Positions 41,953 to 51,780 of a stretch of 64,000 nucleotides of DNA are shown here, one piece after another; the stretch's first letter is position 1; every line of letters starts with the position of its first letter. The notes beneath the pieces were generated by a model. That model was not told the DNA's origin. It searched no databases and saw only the letters and a program-made list of their open reading frames with translations. The DNA is from Alcanivorax sp. S71-1-4. GTDB lineage: Bacteria > Pseudomonadota > Gammaproteobacteria > Pseudomonadales > Alcanivoracaceae. Both the position numbers and the translations under genes were made by a program. The stretch covers positions 124,001-188,000 of the forward strand of contig NZ_AQOR01000005.1 of NCBI RefSeq assembly GCF_009846755.1, in the 5' to 3' direction.

Positions 41953-42153
41953 ATGAGTGATCACCTGGAACTGGATGCAGACGACCTGCTTACCACGCTC
42001 GAGCAAGTGGAAGAAACCCTGTCGGTCATGACCGGCGTAGTCGGCCACCTGAAAGAACAGGTACTGGCCCAACTCGACGAAGACGCGGTGCTGGAACTGA
42101 GCGCCGAAGAGTTCCTGGAACGCTGCGACAACACCACCGGCACCTGGCACTGA
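41953..42153 (+). CDS. Small acidic protein of unknown function
   Basis: The 66-residue product is strongly acidic and predicted to be mostly helical (DDLLTTLEQVEETLSVMTGV, then LKEQVLAQLDEDAVLELSAE). It ends CDNTTGTWH. There is no signal peptide or membrane segment. AGGAG lies eight to nine bases before the ATG, and a hairpin terminator follows the stop, so it looks like a real single-gene unit. I do not recognise a family. The helical heptad pattern could form a short coiled coil. Confidence 0.7.
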   Translation: MSDHLELDADDLLTTLEQVEETLSVMTGVVGHLKEQVLAQLDEDAVLELSAEEFLERCDNTTGTWH

Positions 42154-42171: not shown

Positions 42172-42198
42172 GGCGGGCCGGAAGCCCGCCCCCTGTTT
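42172..42198 (+). terminator. Terminator after the small acidic gene
   Basis: GGCGGGC and GCCCGCC (loop CGGAA) are followed by CCCCTGTTTT, about 20 bases after the stop codon. It separates the small gene from the SMR operon promoter. Confidence 0.75.
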
Positions 42199-42279: not shown

Positions 42280-42285
42280 TATAAT
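42280..42285 (+). promoter_or_regulatory. Consensus -10 box of the paired SMR operon leader
   Basis: TATAAT is exact. The expected -35 region (CAGCTT at 17 bases) is poor, so an activator or an extended contact may be needed. A start near 42292 would put the leader-peptide ATG only about four bases into the transcript. Confidence 0.6.
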
Positions 42286-42295
42286 GCGCCGCATC

Positions 42296-42367
42296 ATGAA
42301 CACACCCCTGATCTTAAACTTCGTGTCTGTCGTCGCCAGCGAGCATTACTGGCGCCACTCTCTCTAG
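42296..42367 (+). CDS. Leader peptide (23 codons) of the SMR exporter operon
   Basis: ATG at 42296 opens a 23-codon frame that starts [13 protein letters not shown] and ends HYWRHSL before a TAG at 42365-42367. No Shine-Dalgarno is visible; it would be read as a nearly leaderless message from the TATAAT promoter. The TAG is also the first codon of the anti-Shine-Dalgarno arm described next, so the position of a ribosome on this ORF decides whether the arm is free. E. coli mdtJI is also known to have a regulatory leader ORF (mdtU) responding to spermidine; the sequences cannot be compared here. Translation is predicted, not shown. Confidence 0.6.
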
Positions 42368-42450
42368 CTCCACAGCCAACCCGCCGCTGCGCGGGTCTAC
42401 GATTTCCGATCCGAAACGCTGACGTCCCGTCACGGGACGCTGTGGAGCTA
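42365..42450 (+). promoter_or_regulatory. Attenuator: stem that sequesters the ribosome-binding site of the first SMR gene
   Basis: TAGCTCCACAGC (42365-42376) is perfectly complementary to GCTGTGGAGCTA (42439-42450). The right arm contains GGAG (42444-42447), spaced seven bases from the ATG at 42455. Two local hairpins fill the loop: ACCCGC/GCGGGT (~42379-42396) and CGTCCCG/CGGGACG (42423-42439). The left arm begins at the leader-peptide stop codon. A ribosome stalled or pausing there would expose the ribosome-binding site. The sequence does not show the ACGR loops of guanidine-II or any other riboswitch I know. Confidence 0.7.
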
Positions 42451-42454
42451 TCCC

Positions 42455-42805
42455 ATGATTTACTGGTTATTCCTGCTGGCGGCCATTGTCGCCGAAGTAC
42501 TGGGTACCAGCGCCATGAAGTACGCCAGCGGCAGCGCGCCGCTGGCGGGTTATCTGGCCATGTACCCGCTGATTGCCCTGTCCTATTTTTGCCTGGCCCG
42601 CGCCGTGCAGCGCATCCCCCTGGGCGTCGCCTATGCGCTGTGGGAAGGGCTTGGGCTGACAATGATTGCCCTCGTCGGCACGCTGCTTTTTGCCGAACCA
42701 CTTTCCACCTGCCAGACCATCGGTATCCTGCTGTTGCTGGGGGGCATTGCCCTGCTGAAATCCGGCACGCACGAGGGCACGCACGAGGGAGGGCACGCAT
42801 CATGA
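42455..42805 (+). CDS. mdtJ: Paired SMR exporter subunit (MdtJ-like)
   Basis: The 116-residue membrane protein has four helices and the essential Glu at residue 14 ([20 protein letters not shown]), with [20 protein letters not shown] in helix 3. An extra His/Glu-rich C-terminal tail ([13 protein letters not shown]) could bind metal or polyamine. With the next gene it forms a two-gene SMR pair in which both chains are needed, as for spermidine exporter MdtJI. The name is by family resemblance. Its ribosome-binding site is buried in the leader stem, and its stop overlaps the next start (ATGA). Confidence 0.82.
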
Positions 42806-43125
42806 ACACCACGCCACTGGCCTGGCTGTTGCTGGCCGTCGTGCTCGAAGTGTTGGCCAACATCCTGTTGAAGTACTCCGCCGGTTTTCGCCGCTGGCGC
42901 CCGGCGCTGGCTTCCATCCTGTGCGTATTCGGTGCCTTTACCGCACTGGCTCAAGCGGTGCGCGACATGGACCTGGCCGTGGCCTACGCGCTCTGGGGCG
43001 GCTTCGGCGTTCTCGCCACCGTCGTCGCCGGTGCGCTGTTGTTCCAGCAACGCCTCACTCCGCGTGCAGGCCTGGGCCTGGCCGTACTGCTGGCGGGTAT
43101 GGGGATGCTGAAATTCGGCGCCTGA
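42802..43125 (+). CDS. mdtI: Paired SMR exporter subunit (MdtI-like)
   Basis: The 107-residue four-helix SMR protein has the essential Glu at residue 16 ([20 protein letters not shown]) and [20 protein letters not shown] in helix 3. It is shorter and lacks the charged tail of its partner. The ATGA overlap gives coupled translation, so control of the first gene should control both. The substrate may be spermidine or a guanidinium or cationic compound; the sequence does not decide this. Confidence 0.85.
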
Positions 43126-43186
43126 CGCCGCACACCTGACCCCTTATTTCCCTGCACCGGAACGCGTTTCCGACACTTGTATACCC

Positions 43187-43226
43187 CGCCTGACAAGCGC
43201 CGCAAAACGGTGGCGCTTGTCAGGCG
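43187..43226. repeat. 15-bp perfect inverted repeat between the SMR operon and the pilus operon
   Basis: CGCCTGACAAGCGCC (43187-43201) and GGCGCTTGTCAGGCG (43212-43226) enclose a ten-base loop. It lies about 60 bp after mdtI and 50 bp before the pilin-like gene. No T run follows, so it may be a weak terminator or an operator for the pilus operon. Confidence 0.65.
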
Positions 43227-43278
43227 ATTAGCCCATGATGACGAACATGGAACTGTATCTCAGGATGAGGATGGCACC

Positions 43279-43827
43279 ATGATATCTTTCTTCAGACGAG
43301 CCCTGTCGGGCAGCCTTATCAGCCTTGCCATGTCATGCCTGCCGGCCCCGGCGGCAACGGTAGACACCACCTTCGACGTCACCATCACGCTGAACGCAGC
43401 CTGTGAAATAAACGGCGCTTTCAACGGCGATGCGTTAGGCGCCGGAGACCTGGATTTCGGGACCCACCCTGCCACCATTGTCAGCGATATCGATGCAGAC
43501 AATGCCGGCACGCCGTCGGCCGGGATAGCCGTGCTGTGCAGTGACGGGCTGGCCTATGATGTCGGGCTGGATCAGGGGCTGAACGAGAACCTCGGGGTAC
43601 GCCGCATGGCGGGCACCAGTGATTTCGTCGAATATGAGCTGTACCAGGACGCCGCGCGCACCACGCCATGGGGTGACCTGGCCTCTGGCGACGAACTGTC
43701 TGCCACCGGCAATGGCCTGCGGCAGACTTACACCGTCTATGGGCGGGTCCCGGCAGGACAGGCGCCAGTTCTGGTCGCACCGCCGGAAACCTTCACTGAC
43801 ACCATTACCGTCACCGTCGAATTCTGA
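43279..43827 (+). CDS. Csu-type pilin subunit (spore coat U domain)
   Basis: The 182-residue protein has a signal peptide ending near APAAT, an N-terminal donor strand region (DTTFDVTITLNAACEING), a central SCPU/Csu fold (DLDFGTHPATI, SAGIAVLCSDGLAYDVGLDQ, GVRRMAGTSDFVEYELYQDA) and an ending FTDTITVTVEF, typical of Csu pilins. It is the likely major subunit of an archaic chaperone-usher pilus used in attachment to surfaces. GAGG precedes the ATG at 43279 by eight bases. Confidence 0.85.
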   Translation: MISFFRRALSGSLISLAMSCLPAPAATVDTTFDVTITLNAACEINGAFNGDALGAGDLDFGTHPATIVSDIDADNAGTPSAGIAVLCSDGLAYDVGLDQGLNENLGVRRMAGTSDFVEYELYQDAARTTPWGDLASGDELSATGNGLRQTYTVYGRVPAGQAPVLVAPPETFTDTITVTVEF

Positions 43828-43891
43828 TCTTCCCTGAGCACCGTCGGCACACCCTTCCCCCGAAGGCCACCGGCGGTGCCAGAGCAGACGC

Positions 43892-46354
43892 GTGCGATAC
43901 CCGGCTATCACGACGGCAGCCTGGCTGGCCACGGCTGGCGCAGCCTTCCTGCCCTGCATTGCCGCCTCAGCAGATCATGGGCCCAGCACCGTGGCAGACC
44001 TGCATACACTTGCCAACCTGCCAGGCAACGATATCGCCAGCCTGCGCGCGTTGGCGACGCGCCAGCGTCACTACACGGTGTATCCCGAACTGATACTGAA
44101 CGGCCTCAACACCGGCCACCCGCTGCCCATGCAACTGGGCGGTGACCACCCGTCACTCCAGCCCGCGCGATTGCGGGAACTCGGCCTGGCGTTGCCGGAG
44201 GCCTACGACACCGAGTGGGTGTCGATGCGGGAGCTGGGGGTGCAGGGCCACTACCAGCCTCAGCAGCAAAGACTGTACCTGGACGTGCCGGCGCAATGGC
44301 TGCCCGTGCAGTTCCGCCGCGCCGGCAACCGGTTGCACCGCAGCGCGCTCGCGCGGAGTAGCGGTGCGCTGCTGAACTATGATCTGTTCACCACCCGCCA
44401 GGAGGATGGCACGGTCTATTCCGCTGCCGGTCACGAAGCGCGGCTGTTTTCGCACCTTGGCACCCTGTCCTCCTCAGGCGTCGTCCGCTGGCAGGACAGC
44501 CCCGACATCCCGGCGCGAGACAACCGCTATGTCCGCCTGGATACCTTCTGGCGTCATACCGACCCGGAACAGATGCACACCTACACCCTGGGTGACACCT
44601 TGACCGGCGCTCTCGCCTGGAGCAGCAGCGTCCGGGTGGCAGGCGCGCAACTATCCCGCAATTTCGCCTCTCGTCCGGACCTGATTACCTTTCCCCTGCC
44701 CAGTATCAGCGGCTCTGCGGCGGTCCCGACGGCACTGGACATTTTTGTCAACGACCTCAAAGTCGGCGAGCAGGCACTGCAACCAGGCCCCTTCGTCCTG
44801 GAAACCACACCGGCGCTGACCGGCCTGGGCGAGGTCACCCTGATCACCACGGATACCCTGGGCCGCCAGGTCGCGAGTACCGTGCCCTTTTACGTCTCAC
44901 CTGAATTACTGCGCCCGGGCCTGGCGGACTACAGCCTCACCCTCGGCGCGCCACGCCGCCAGTTCGGCCAACGTTCAGCCGATTATCAGGACACTCTGCT
45001 GAGCAGCGGTGCGCTCCGCTACGGCGTGAATGACCTGCTCACGGTGGAAGGCACCGCCAGCCATGTGGATACCCTGCGCGTAGCCGGCGCCGGCGTGGTG
45101 ACACGGCTGGGCCTGCTCGGCGTCGGTGCGCTGGCCTACAGCCACAGCGCTACCGACCAGCTTGACGGCCACCAGCTCAGTGCACGCTATGAATATCGCC
45201 GCCGCGGGCTCGGGCTGAGTGCCCAGCATACCGAGCGCACTGCCGGCTTTCGTGATCTGGGCAACTATTTTTCTGCCGGTACCGCTGTACAGCAGATATC
45301 CCAGTTCAACAGTTATTTCACGTTGCCCCGCGGGCAAGGCAGCCTCAGTGCCAGCTATCTGCGCACCCGTCAATTCGACGGGGAACGGACTGACTTTCTT
45401 GTCATGAGCCACAGCCGCGCACTCTGGCACCGCGCGTCGCTGAATTTCAGCGTCAATCAGAACCTCCGCGAGCGCGAGGACCGGACCTTCCGTATCAGCC
45501 TGAACCTGCCCCTTGGCCTGCCACAGCATCGGCCAGTCAGCGTCGGCGCCGGCATGACCCGGCATCCGGACAGCCGCCAGAGTGTGGTGTCGCTGCGCCG
45601 GCCTGCCCAGCAGTTCTGGGATCTGGGCTGGGACCTCGCCAAAGGCTTTCAGGACGACAGCTTCAGCCGTGCCCATCTCGACTGGCGCACCCCTTACGCC
45701 CAGTTCCACGGCGGCGCCTTCGAACGCGACAGCGACACCACGTTGTTCGGCGGTGTCACCGGCTCACTGGCCTATGCCGGTGGCGGCCTGTTCGCGGCCA
45801 ACCGGATCGGTGACAGTTTTGCGGTGGTTGATACCGGGGGCTTCGCGGGCGTGCCGGTTCGTCAATCCAATCAACTGGTCGGGCATTCCAACCGGCAGGG
45901 TCATCTGCTGCTGCCCAACCTGGTGCCCTTCTCCCCCAACCGCATCAGCATTGATATCGACACGCTGCCGGTGGATGCGCTGGTGGCCCAGCCTGTTGCC
46001 CGCATTACGCCGGCCGACCTCAGCGGCGTCGTCGTGCACTTCGACATAACGCAGCAACACAGCGCCCTGCTCACGCTGGTCGATGACCAGGGCGCCCCTG
46101 TGCCACCAGGCCGGCCCGTGCGTTTGCCGAACGGGCGCAACACCGTCACCGGCCACGGCGGCGAAGTCTTCGCCACCGCCCTGCGAGACGGGACCAACAG
46201 CCTCCACGTGGTCGCCGGCAATGCGCAGACCTGCATCGCCACATTCGAATTCAGCAGCCAGGCGGGCACACTGCAGCGCCTGGGCACATTCACCTGCCAG
46301 CGCATACCACCCGTCCATTTGGACACGCATTCCCCCGGGGAGGGACACCCATGA
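43892..46354 (+). CDS. Outer-membrane usher of the Csu-type pilus
   Basis: The 820-residue protein has a signal peptide (MRYPAITTAAWLATAGAAFL), an N-terminal chaperone-binding domain (YPELILNGLNTGHPLPMQLG), the large 24-strand pore region (FFVNDLKVGEQALQPGPFVL-like plug area, SHVDTLRVAGAGVVTRLGLL barrel), and C-terminal plug-type domains ending in a Cys pair (TCIATFEFS, GTFTCQRIPP). It secretes and assembles pilin subunits. The start is GTG (43892) with a weak ribosome-binding site. The stop overlaps the chaperone start (ATGA). In the A. baumannii csu operon the chaperone precedes the usher; here the order is reversed. Confidence 0.9.
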   Translation: MRYPAITTAAWLATAGAAFLPCIAASADHGPSTVADLHTLANLPGNDIASLRALATRQRHYTVYPELILNGLNTGHPLPMQLGGDHPSLQPARLRELGLALPEAYDTEWVSMRELGVQGHYQPQQQRLYLDVPAQWLPVQFRRAGNRLHRSALARSSGALLNYDLFTTRQEDGTVYSAAGHEARLFSHLGTLSSSGVVRWQDSPDIPARDNRYVRLDTFWRHTDPEQMHTYTLGDTLTGALAWSSSVRVAGAQLSRNFASRPDLITFPLPSISGSAAVPTALDIFVNDLKVGEQALQPGPFVLETTPALTGLGEVTLITTDTLGRQVASTVPFYVSPELLRPGLADYSLTLGAPRRQFGQRSADYQDTLLSSGALRYGVNDLLTVEGTASHVDTLRVAGAGVVTRLGLLGVGALAYSHSATDQLDGHQLSARYEYRRRGLGLSAQHTERTAGFRDLGNYFSAGTAVQQISQFNSYFTLPRGQGSLSASYLRTRQFDGERTDFLVMSHSRALWHRASLNFSVNQNLREREDRTFRISLNLPLGLPQHRPVSVGAGMTRHPDSRQSVVSLRRPAQQFWDLGWDLAKGFQDDSFSRAHLDWRTPYAQFHGGAFERDSDTTLFGGVTGSLAYAGGGLFAANRIGDSFAVVDTGGFAGVPVRQSNQLVGHSNRQGHLLLPNLVPFSPNRISIDIDTLPVDALVAQPVARITPADLSGVVVHFDITQQHSALLTLVDDQGAPVPPGRPVRLPNGRNTVTGHGGEVFATALRDGTNSLHVVAGNAQTCIATFEFSSQAGTLQRLGTFTCQRIPPVHLDTHSPGEGHP

Positions 46355-47085
46355 CCAGCCATCTGTCTTGCCGTCTGTTTTACCTGCTGTTTCGCGCCCC
46401 GTTGCTGTACGGCACCCTGTGCCTGACGCTGGCCAGGGCGGACGGCATCGTCATCAGCCCCACGCTGGTGACCCTGGCGCCTGACCAGCACACGCAGATC
46501 GTCACCCTGCAGAACAACTCGCCACAACCGCGCTACTACCAGGTGCAGCTTTTCGCCTGGCAACAGCAGGCGGGCGAAAACCTGTATGCACAACAGGACA
46601 GCCTGCTCGTCACCCCACCGATCAGTGAAGTGCCCGCCGGCGAGCAACAGTTGATACGCATTATCCGCCCGAGCCGGAGCGCCCCCACCCGGGAACAGAG
46701 CTACCGGCTGATCATCAGCGAGATCCCGGACGATAGCAGCGGCACAGGCGTGCTGGCGGTCGACATGCTGCTGCGATTATCACTGCCGGTGTTCGCCCAG
46801 GGCACCACCCCCGCCCAGGCGGCCCTGAACGCGCGTCTGACGCCACACCAGGCGGGGCAACAGGTGAGCCTGCACAACCTCGGCGGCCGGCATGCACGGC
46901 TGACGCACGGTGAATGGCTGTTCAACGATGATTCGGCCCGGCCCTGGCAGGCCGGTTTGATCGGCTACGTATTGCCGGGCCAGACGATGCAATGGCCAGC
47001 CGGCGAATTGCCTGAACAGCCCAGAGCCCTGCGGCTGCACGTCAACGGCACCACGCAGACCCTGACCCTGGGAGAAACACCATGA
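46351..47085 (+). CDS. Periplasmic pilus chaperone (CsuC-like)
   Basis: The 244-residue product has a signal peptide ending ...LTLARADG and the PapD-like two-Ig-domain chaperone pattern: IVISPTLVTLAPDQHTQIVT in strand A1, LLVTPPISEVPAGEQQLIRI and REQSYRLIISEIPD, then the second domain to residue ~240. It carries subunits to the usher by donor-strand complementation. The ATGA overlaps at both ends show tight coupling in the pilus operon. Confidence 0.88.
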   Translation: MTSHLSCRLFYLLFRAPLLYGTLCLTLARADGIVISPTLVTLAPDQHTQIVTLQNNSPQPRYYQVQLFAWQQQAGENLYAQQDSLLVTPPISEVPAGEQQLIRIIRPSRSAPTREQSYRLIISEIPDDSSGTGVLAVDMLLRLSLPVFAQGTTPAQAALNARLTPHQAGQQVSLHNLGGRHARLTHGEWLFNDDSARPWQAGLIGYVLPGQTMQWPAGELPEQPRALRLHVNGTTQTLTLGETP

Positions 47086-51393: not shown

Positions 51394-51402
51394 GTGCTGG
51401 CT

Positions 51403-51449
51403 GGCAGAGACGACTCTGCCCGCTCCACCTTGCTCCAGGGGACGGCCCC
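51403..51449 (+). promoter_or_regulatory. Guanidine-II (mini-ykkC) riboswitch
   Basis: Two hairpins with ACGR loops are present: GGCAGAG-ACGA-CTCTGCC (51403-51420) and GGGG-ACGG-CCCC (51438-51449), separated by 17 bases. This is the defining architecture of the guanidine-II class, and the next gene is a Gdx/SugE-type exporter, the usual target. Guanidine binding between the two loops would expose the downstream ribosome-binding site (AATGAGGA near 51460). Confidence 0.93.
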
Positions 51450-51468
51450 GCTTAATGAGGAAACCGTC

Positions 51469-51780
51469 ATGCCCTGGATTCTCCTGTCTGTCGCAGGTCT
51501 GCTGGAAGTGGTCTGGGCCGTGGGCCTGAAGCGCCTTGATGCAGAGGCTCCCCTGTTACTCTGGTTCGGTGTCGTCTCGGCACTGCTCGGCAGCGTTGCG
51601 CTGCTGGCACTGGCCATGCGCGACTTACCACTGTCGCTCGCTTATCCGCTGTGGGTGGGCATCGGCCTGCTGGGATCGGTGCTGGCCGGCATGCTGCTGT
51701 TCGGCGAGAGTGTGTCCCCGTTGAAATGGGCCAGCCTCGCGCTGATCGCGCTGGGCATGCTGGGCCTAAAAGCTCTTTAG
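51469..51780 (+). CDS. gdx: Guanidinium exporter (Gdx/SugE, SMR family)
   Basis: The 103-residue SMR protein has the Gdx signature in helix 1: MPWILLSVAGLLEVVWAVGL with Glu13 and Trp16, the residues that define the guanidinium-selective subtype. SLAYPLWVGIGLLGSVLAGM follows in helix 3, and GES in FGESVSPLKWASL matches SugE. It works as a dual-topology dimer that exchanges guanidinium for protons. Control by the riboswitch upstream confirms the substrate class. It ends just before palindromic repeat copy 3. Confidence 0.95.
   Translation: MPWILLSVAGLLEVVWAVGLKRLDAEAPLLLWFGVVSALLGSVALLALAMRDLPLSLAYPLWVGIGLLGSVLAGMLLFGESVSPLKWASLALIALGMLGLKAL

Follow-up and report, generated by a model that had tools for sequence, protein, structure and literature searches.

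Judged by their sequences, two SMR exporter genes and the short open reading frame ahead of them in the 64,000-nucleotide stretch of DNA analysed here (the window) are the mdtUJI operon of an Alcanivoracaceae bacterium. The explanation that we favour, with a probability of roughly 0.7, is that this is an mdtUJI leader in which spermidine-dependent arrest of the ribosome at the UAG stop codon would free the Shine-Dalgarno (SD) sequence of mdtJ. The class of system is already known from Escherichia coli, and the window is a further case of it, from Alcanivoracaceae. Beyond the E. coli work, we add membership of Alcanivoracaceae, a near-leaderless layout, a near-fixed UAG, the exact motif and a covariation test. 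The first-pass annotation had invoked mdtJI as an analogy; the operon itself is assigned here as mdtJI and its leader as an ortholog of E. coli MdtU.

The leader uORF of E. coli mdtJI is mdtU, also named ydgV (Adams et al. 2021, PMC7815308). According to the portion of that paper available to us, mdtU is translated, its start codon is required for the induction of mdtJI by spermidine, and Rho is involved in the control of mdtUJI. The same portion reports conservation of the MdtU C-terminus across no fewer than 17 gammaproteobacterial genera and a predicted pairing between the conserved part and the ribosome-binding site of mdtJ, and it says that the mechanism “deserves further study”. Neither the names Alcanivorax and Pseudomonas nor the terms UAG and RF1 occur in its main text. 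In the accessible parts of other papers it is reported that translation of E. coli mdtU possibly initiates upstream of the annotated start (PMC12350097), that mdtU is induced in mild acid (PMC10746267), and that AcrR represses mdtUJI (PMC9769551).

The exporter genes lie on the forward strand, mdtJ at 42455–42805 and mdtI at 42802–43125, with an ATGA overlap. Both proteins match PF00893 (SMR). The MdtI protein scores 133.4 bits against the NCBIfam model NF007934, above its cut-off of 103; for MdtJ the best-scoring family is NF007767 (111.3 bits), yet the score is under the curated cut-off of 122. Identity to the E. coli proteins is 45% for MdtJ and 55% for MdtI. Residues W4, E14, Y44, Y60 and E81 of the window MdtJ are invariant in the alignment with E. 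coli MdtJ. The E. coli residues in these columns, W5, E15, Y45, Y61 and E82, are those that we take to be important for spermidine export; a literature search on MdtJ export residues found no paper, and one on PA1541/PA1540 found nothing useful. Given these family searches and alignments, we assign the pair as MdtJ-MdtI, the spermidine exporter. The host genome also contains a gene of the spermidine synthase family (191 bits). The distribution of MdtJ orthologs in Alcanivoracaceae is patchy: they are clear in 5 of 46 genomes, these five scoring at least 124.8 bits and the next 71.4.

Upstream of the operon, an intrinsic terminator-like hairpin (42172–42190, forward strand) found in the terminator and promoter scan separates the mdtU promoter from a 66-aa ORF (41953–42153), which has no Pfam match and stands between an apparent nrdB and mdtU. 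Directly 3’ of mdtI, at 43177–47085, are ORFs whose translations resemble fimbrial subunit, usher and chaperone genes. The window contains another SMR gene (51471–51780), directly after a Guanidine-II (mini-ykkC) riboswitch at 51402–51450 (32.5 bits; gathering threshold 32), and this gene likely encodes a guanidine exporter. Thus the window holds two SMR exporters under different control, 9 kb apart. Guanidine was considered as the ligand of the mdtJI leader and rejected: the only guanidine motif in the window at the gathering threshold is this one, 9 kb off and before the other SMR gene. The first-pass annotation had left the ligand unnamed; since the operon appears to be mdtJI and the leader an MdtU ortholog, spermidine is the most likely ligand by analogy with E. 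coli.

The leader occupies 42296–42367 of the forward strand; it consists of 23 sense codons followed by UAG (42365–42367), and anti-SD scoring gives it no strong SD. The first-pass annotation had given these coordinates exactly, together with a TATAAT box, which is indeed present at 42280–42285. The 3’ end of the frame (42341–42367) encodes the conserved C-terminal motif E-x2-W-x3-L-UAG (EHYWRHSL*), recognized from the alignment and the locus counts and presumed to be the arrest motif. The anti-SD arm UAGCUCCACAGC (= TAGCTCCACAGC; 42365–42376) begins at the stop codon itself and is complementary in 12 of 12 positions to the SD arm GCUGUGGAGCUA (= GCTGTGGAGCTA; 42439–42450), which contains the mdtJ SD, GGAG (42444–42447), located 7 nt upstream of the mdtJ ATG at 42455. 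The perfect complementarity claimed from the letters is thereby borne out, and the helix is present in both the MFE and the centroid structures of the RNA 42290–42475. The folding energy of this RNA is −60.7 kcal/mol, compared with −48.1 ± 4.5 kcal/mol for shuffled RNAs (z −2.8; 3 of 200 equally stable). The loop (42377–42438) is highly variable in length among relatives. Local hairpins had been described inside it; they are predicted, although the MFE fold contains three and not two. A riboswitch at the leader was rejected: Rfam gave no match there at either the gathering or the relaxed threshold, the single match being unrelated (E 3.5). As judged from its recurrence in relatives with different arm sequences, the layout of the arms is more than chance.

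The occurrence of the leader was examined at 125 MdtJ loci, reduced to 117 distinct ones by removing eight repeats of the same place (L003, L004, L112, L142, L143, L144, L171, identical to L111, and L175, identical to L094); counts on 114 loci or on 27 Pseudomonas loci still include L171 and L175. The loci were selected by MdtJ similarity, and the leader was not a criterion. They came from the best 80 named-contig matches, E. coli K-12, genomes of the family and order, 23 of the 25 genomes in one Pseudomonas genus and 12 of the 37 in one more Pseudomonadales family.

A leader precedes mdtJ in all 117 distinct loci, many of which are closely related, so that these counts are not counts of independent events. 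The strict motif near mdtJ identified 112 of the leaders, and the other five appeared on a wider or relaxed look. Among these initial misses are three Yersinia loci (L057, L063, L067) with the leader further upstream (343–487 nt). The leader of L034, detected by the relaxed motif only, has V in place of E and R in place of L, and that of L152 has the motif with a UAA stop. With no restriction on the stop codon, the search recovered an MdtU-like frame at 93 of 98 and at 34 of 35 loci (the two sets share 8). In the control, the loose motif occurred at one of 71 SMR loci classed by scores as non-MdtJ (L165), and there without the W; no such leader precedes the SMR gene of L113, which is also classed as non-MdtJ at a borderline 92.8 bits to the MdtJ model. 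With a leader profile, 5 of 45 Alcanivoracaceae genomes match at E ≤ 1.3e-6, and these are the same five that carry MdtJ (next E 0.0088); four of the five leaders were themselves part of the profile, and the fifth has the same sequence as one of those four. MdtU-like leaders before other genes were also sought with the profile: besides the five MdtJ loci it gave only weak matches (E ≥ 0.0088) in 45 genomes of the family and 274 of the class. The leader occurs in Alcanivoracaceae, in Pseudomonas and in another family of Pseudomonadales. Its presence in every distinct MdtJ locus, with arms that match their own partners, strongly supports the leader-ORF and anti-SD reading of the first-pass annotation.

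The distance from the mdtU stop to mdtJ is 62–293 nt in 112 loci and up to 487 nt in Yersinia. At L100, L189 and the three Yersinia loci it grows to 288–487 nt, and hence the loop appears to tolerate large insertions.

In the 112 distinct loci with the strict motif, E occupies position −8 in 110, W position −5 in 111, and L position −1 in 111. All six leucine codons are used at position −1 (CTC 31, CTA 27, CTT 25, CTG 13, TTA 10, TTG 5). Since the codon varies while the residue is kept, selection acts on the peptide and not on the codon, an indirect sign that the leader is translated. Conservation at the end of the ORF, suggested as a check on aligned relatives, therefore concerns the residues E-x2-W-x3-L, which are nearly fixed, and does not extend to the Leu codon.

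The stop codon of the leader is UAG in 116 of the 117 distinct loci and UAA in one, a tally made without the chance motif of L165 and two unrelated TGA frames (L111, L171); the 112-locus motif list was filtered for TAG, and the any-stop searches were separate from it. Stop usage was controlled with the two exporter genes of these loci: UAG ends mdtJ in 1 of 112 loci, and of the 110 mdtI genes found it ends 6. L152, the sole MdtU seen with UAA (stop at 312, reverse strand), has weak arm pairing, −8.2 kcal/mol. Base pairing of the RNA does not account for the fixed UAG, because the U and the A of the stop codon are predicted to pair together at no more than 10 of the 54 non-redundant loci. RF1 is the only release factor that reads UAG. 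As the codon is near-fixed, specific to RF1 and not required by pairing, its simplest reading is arrest at RF1-dependent release, and the 116 of 117 count predicts RF1 dependence. Other leader peptides act by blocking release, according to the available part of PMC10314930.

The pairing of the two arms was compared over the 54 non-redundant loci. Own arms pair on average at −15.8 kcal/mol and swapped arms at −11.1 kcal/mol, and none of 20000 permutations was as good. Among the 32 loci that are mostly from Enterobacterales the count was again 0 of 20000, and among the 8 loci from the other Pseudomonadales family 93 of 20000 permutations were as good. The signal is weak for the 4 Alcanivoracaceae loci (1693 of 20000) and does not reach significance for the 10 Pseudomonas loci (5183 of 20000). 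In 51 of 54 loci, pairing is stronger for the anti-SD arm than for the 24 nt that follow it. The compensatory changes anticipated in the two arms are therefore found across clades, where the covariation is strong, and are not demonstrable within the two small or uniform clades. L149 was excluded from the pairing, ribosome-occlusion and leader-SD tests. There, an inverted-repeat element of about 164 nt (248 to 84 nt upstream of mdtJ) lies exactly at the mdtU stop, with TAG on both sides, and splits the stop from the anti-SD arm, which makes this locus a natural test of the model.

The effect of a ribosome halted at the stop codon was modelled by blocking its footprint. For the window, the cost of opening the mdtJ start is predicted to fall from 20.9 kcal/mol in the free RNA to 7.8 kcal/mol with the ribosome at UAG; the controls, a mid-ORF ribosome and a block in the loop, give 19.9 and 18.1 kcal/mol. 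For 54 loci, the cost averages 11.5 kcal/mol in the free RNA, 9.4 kcal/mol with the ribosome at UAG and 10.8 kcal/mol with it mid-ORF, and 11.6 kcal/mol for the loop block (52 loci); the Wilcoxon p-values for the comparison over loci are 7e-4 and 9e-9. The gain exceeds 2 kcal/mol in only 24 of 54 loci, and in 8 of 54 the cost rises, including a close relative, L032 (6.9 to 9.1 kcal/mol). The mean unpaired probability of GGAG, the measure tried first, proved weak and was followed by the opening cost; with the ribosome at UAG it goes from 0.07 to 0.22, exceeding 0.5 in 6 of 54 loci, and in the window from 0.0001 to 0.39. Under the static model the SD would thus be freed only partly, and occlusion fits the window very well and the 54-locus set only on average.

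The leader itself seems to start close to the 5’ end of its transcript. The TATAAT box, a perfect −10 box, is situated 10 nt upstream of the mdtU ATG on the forward strand, but the −35 is poor. A scan of the window leader for promoters detected none whose −35 is acceptable; the transcription start is accordingly a predicted one. TATAAT or TATACT stands 9–10 nt before the ATG in all five Alcanivoracaceae loci (4 distinct leaders), a spacing that puts the predicted 5’ end about 2–5 nt from the ATG. Pairing with the anti-SD of −5 kcal/mol or better was found for 0 of 5 leaders in Alcanivoracaceae, 1 of 25 in Pseudomonas, and 0 of 10 and 0 of 71 in others. In total, one of 111 leaders has a strong SD compared with 99 of 111 mdtJ genes of the same loci, where the leader count depends on the chosen start codon (the E. 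coli start being in some doubt according to the available part of PMC12350097). In the automated search, the best −10 box lay 8–12 nt before the ATG at 5 of the 27 Pseudomonas loci (including two repeats), at 3 of 11 loci from the other Pseudomonadales family and at 12 of the 71 remaining loci, mostly Enterobacterales. These low counts elsewhere leave a near-leaderless start supported in Alcanivoracaceae only.

In Pseudomonas, a common TTGCCA is located 38–39 nt before the ATG in 20 of 25 distinct loci, and together with CANAAT-like boxes it fits a near-leaderless start, by eye only. Hence the near-leaderless layout would be a feature of Alcanivoracaceae and, less surely, of Pseudomonas. The suggestion that the leader is nearly leaderless agrees with the sequences of the five Alcanivoracaceae loci, and does not carry over to E. 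coli mdtU with its 5’ UTR of about 70 nt (available part of PMC7815308). In 20 of 25 distinct Pseudomonas loci, for example L145, L146 and L172, the palindrome TGTTCATTATGTTGAACA spans the start codon of mdtU together with the predicted transcription start; it resembles a repressor operator. The literature surveyed, which included few subscription journals, yielded no report of leaderless leader or arrest peptides and no statement on UAG or leaderless initiation for mdtU.

The favoured mechanism would operate as follows. Without excess spermidine, ribosomes would complete MdtU and depart at UAG, the helix would cover the mdtJ SD, and little exporter would be produced; as in E. coli, Rho may also truncate the untranslated RNA. 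When spermidine is in excess, the nascent C-terminus of MdtU would block RF1-catalysed release at UAG. The stalling at the end of the leader, which we infer, would leave a ribosome parked at UAG covering the 5’ arm, so that the SD would be freed, MdtJI produced and spermidine exported. In Alcanivoracaceae the leader, beginning a few nucleotides from the 5’ end of the transcript and having no SD, probably uses leaderless-type initiation. The near-fixed E, W, L and UAG mark the presumed arrest motif, the covarying arms point to the output, and the Alcanivoracaceae data suggest a near-leaderless arrest peptide. A broader proposal, to which we give even odds, is that MdtU serves throughout Gammaproteobacteria as a spermidine-sensing termination-arrest peptide specific to RF1: a ribosome carrying the near-fixed E-x2-W-x3-L would hold spermidine and refuse RF1 at an all-but-obligatory UAG. 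Its own start would be SD-independent, nearly leaderless in Alcanivoracaceae and probably in Pseudomonas, which would decouple initiation of the leader from the SD-dependent initiation under its control.

Three other explanations were weighed against spermidine-dependent arrest. Rho-dependent attenuation could be the main output, with the arrest shielding a Rho loading site or sustaining transcription and the SD pairing being secondary. Rho alone needs no SD-complementary arm, yet such an arm is kept and covaries across clades, and the loop in the window is predicted to be structured and not open; we therefore regard this version as unlikely, although it is the most plausible of the three. Less probable still is simple translational coupling, in which ribosomes that terminate at UAG open the helix or reinitiate at mdtJ to an extent set by how much the leader is translated, and no ligand-dependent arrest takes place. 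The position of the stop at the base of the helix would suit it, as would the prediction that a mid-ORF ribosome alone barely opens the window helix (20.9 to 19.9 kcal/mol). However, coupling leaves unexplained the near-fixed E-x2-W-x3-L, the UAG in 116 of 117 loci and a stop-to-mdtJ distance that ranges over 62–293 nt (to 487 nt in Yersinia), and it is at odds with the requirement for the mdtU start codon in spermidine induction in E. coli (available part of PMC7815308).

The last explanation is an element of RNA only, a riboswitch or thermosensor, with no role for the ORF. In its favour are the stable fold and the binding of RNA by polyamines. Against this, Rfam offers nothing at the relaxed threshold besides the unrelated match, the residues of the peptide are kept through synonymous codon change, and mutation of the leader ATG in E. 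coli abolishes induction (available part of PMC7815308). We consider this explanation highly improbable.

The closest known system is E. coli mdtU itself. Its product ends in GEQHWRNAL-UAG, after which UCCUUUCUUC stands opposite GGAGAAGGACAAUG, and the stretch after the stop pairs with GGAGAAGGAC upstream of mdtJ. In both cases a uORF ahead of the same exporter genes has the same C-terminal motif and a UAG stop, and the arm after the stop pairs with the ribosome-binding site of mdtJ. The E. coli leader differs in having 33 codons instead of 23. The arm in the window starts exactly at UAG and forms 12 unbroken pairs, unlike that of E. coli, and the window leader lies about 2–5 nt from its predicted transcript start, compared with the 5’ UTR of about 70 nt in E. 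coli. A second likeness is with SpeFL, the ornithine-sensing leader before speF, in which a ribosome arrested at the stop codon, or immediately ahead of it, governs the polyamine gene that follows (PMC7815308, PMC10314930, in the parts available). The downstream gene is a different one. We know of no MdtU-type ending in SpeFL. TnaC and MsrDL are similar in their described action: each is a leader peptide that keeps release factors from acting at the stop codon of its own frame, and each has a preferred stop codon (available part of PMC10314930), whereas their ligands are tryptophan and macrolides and their output genes are other ones.
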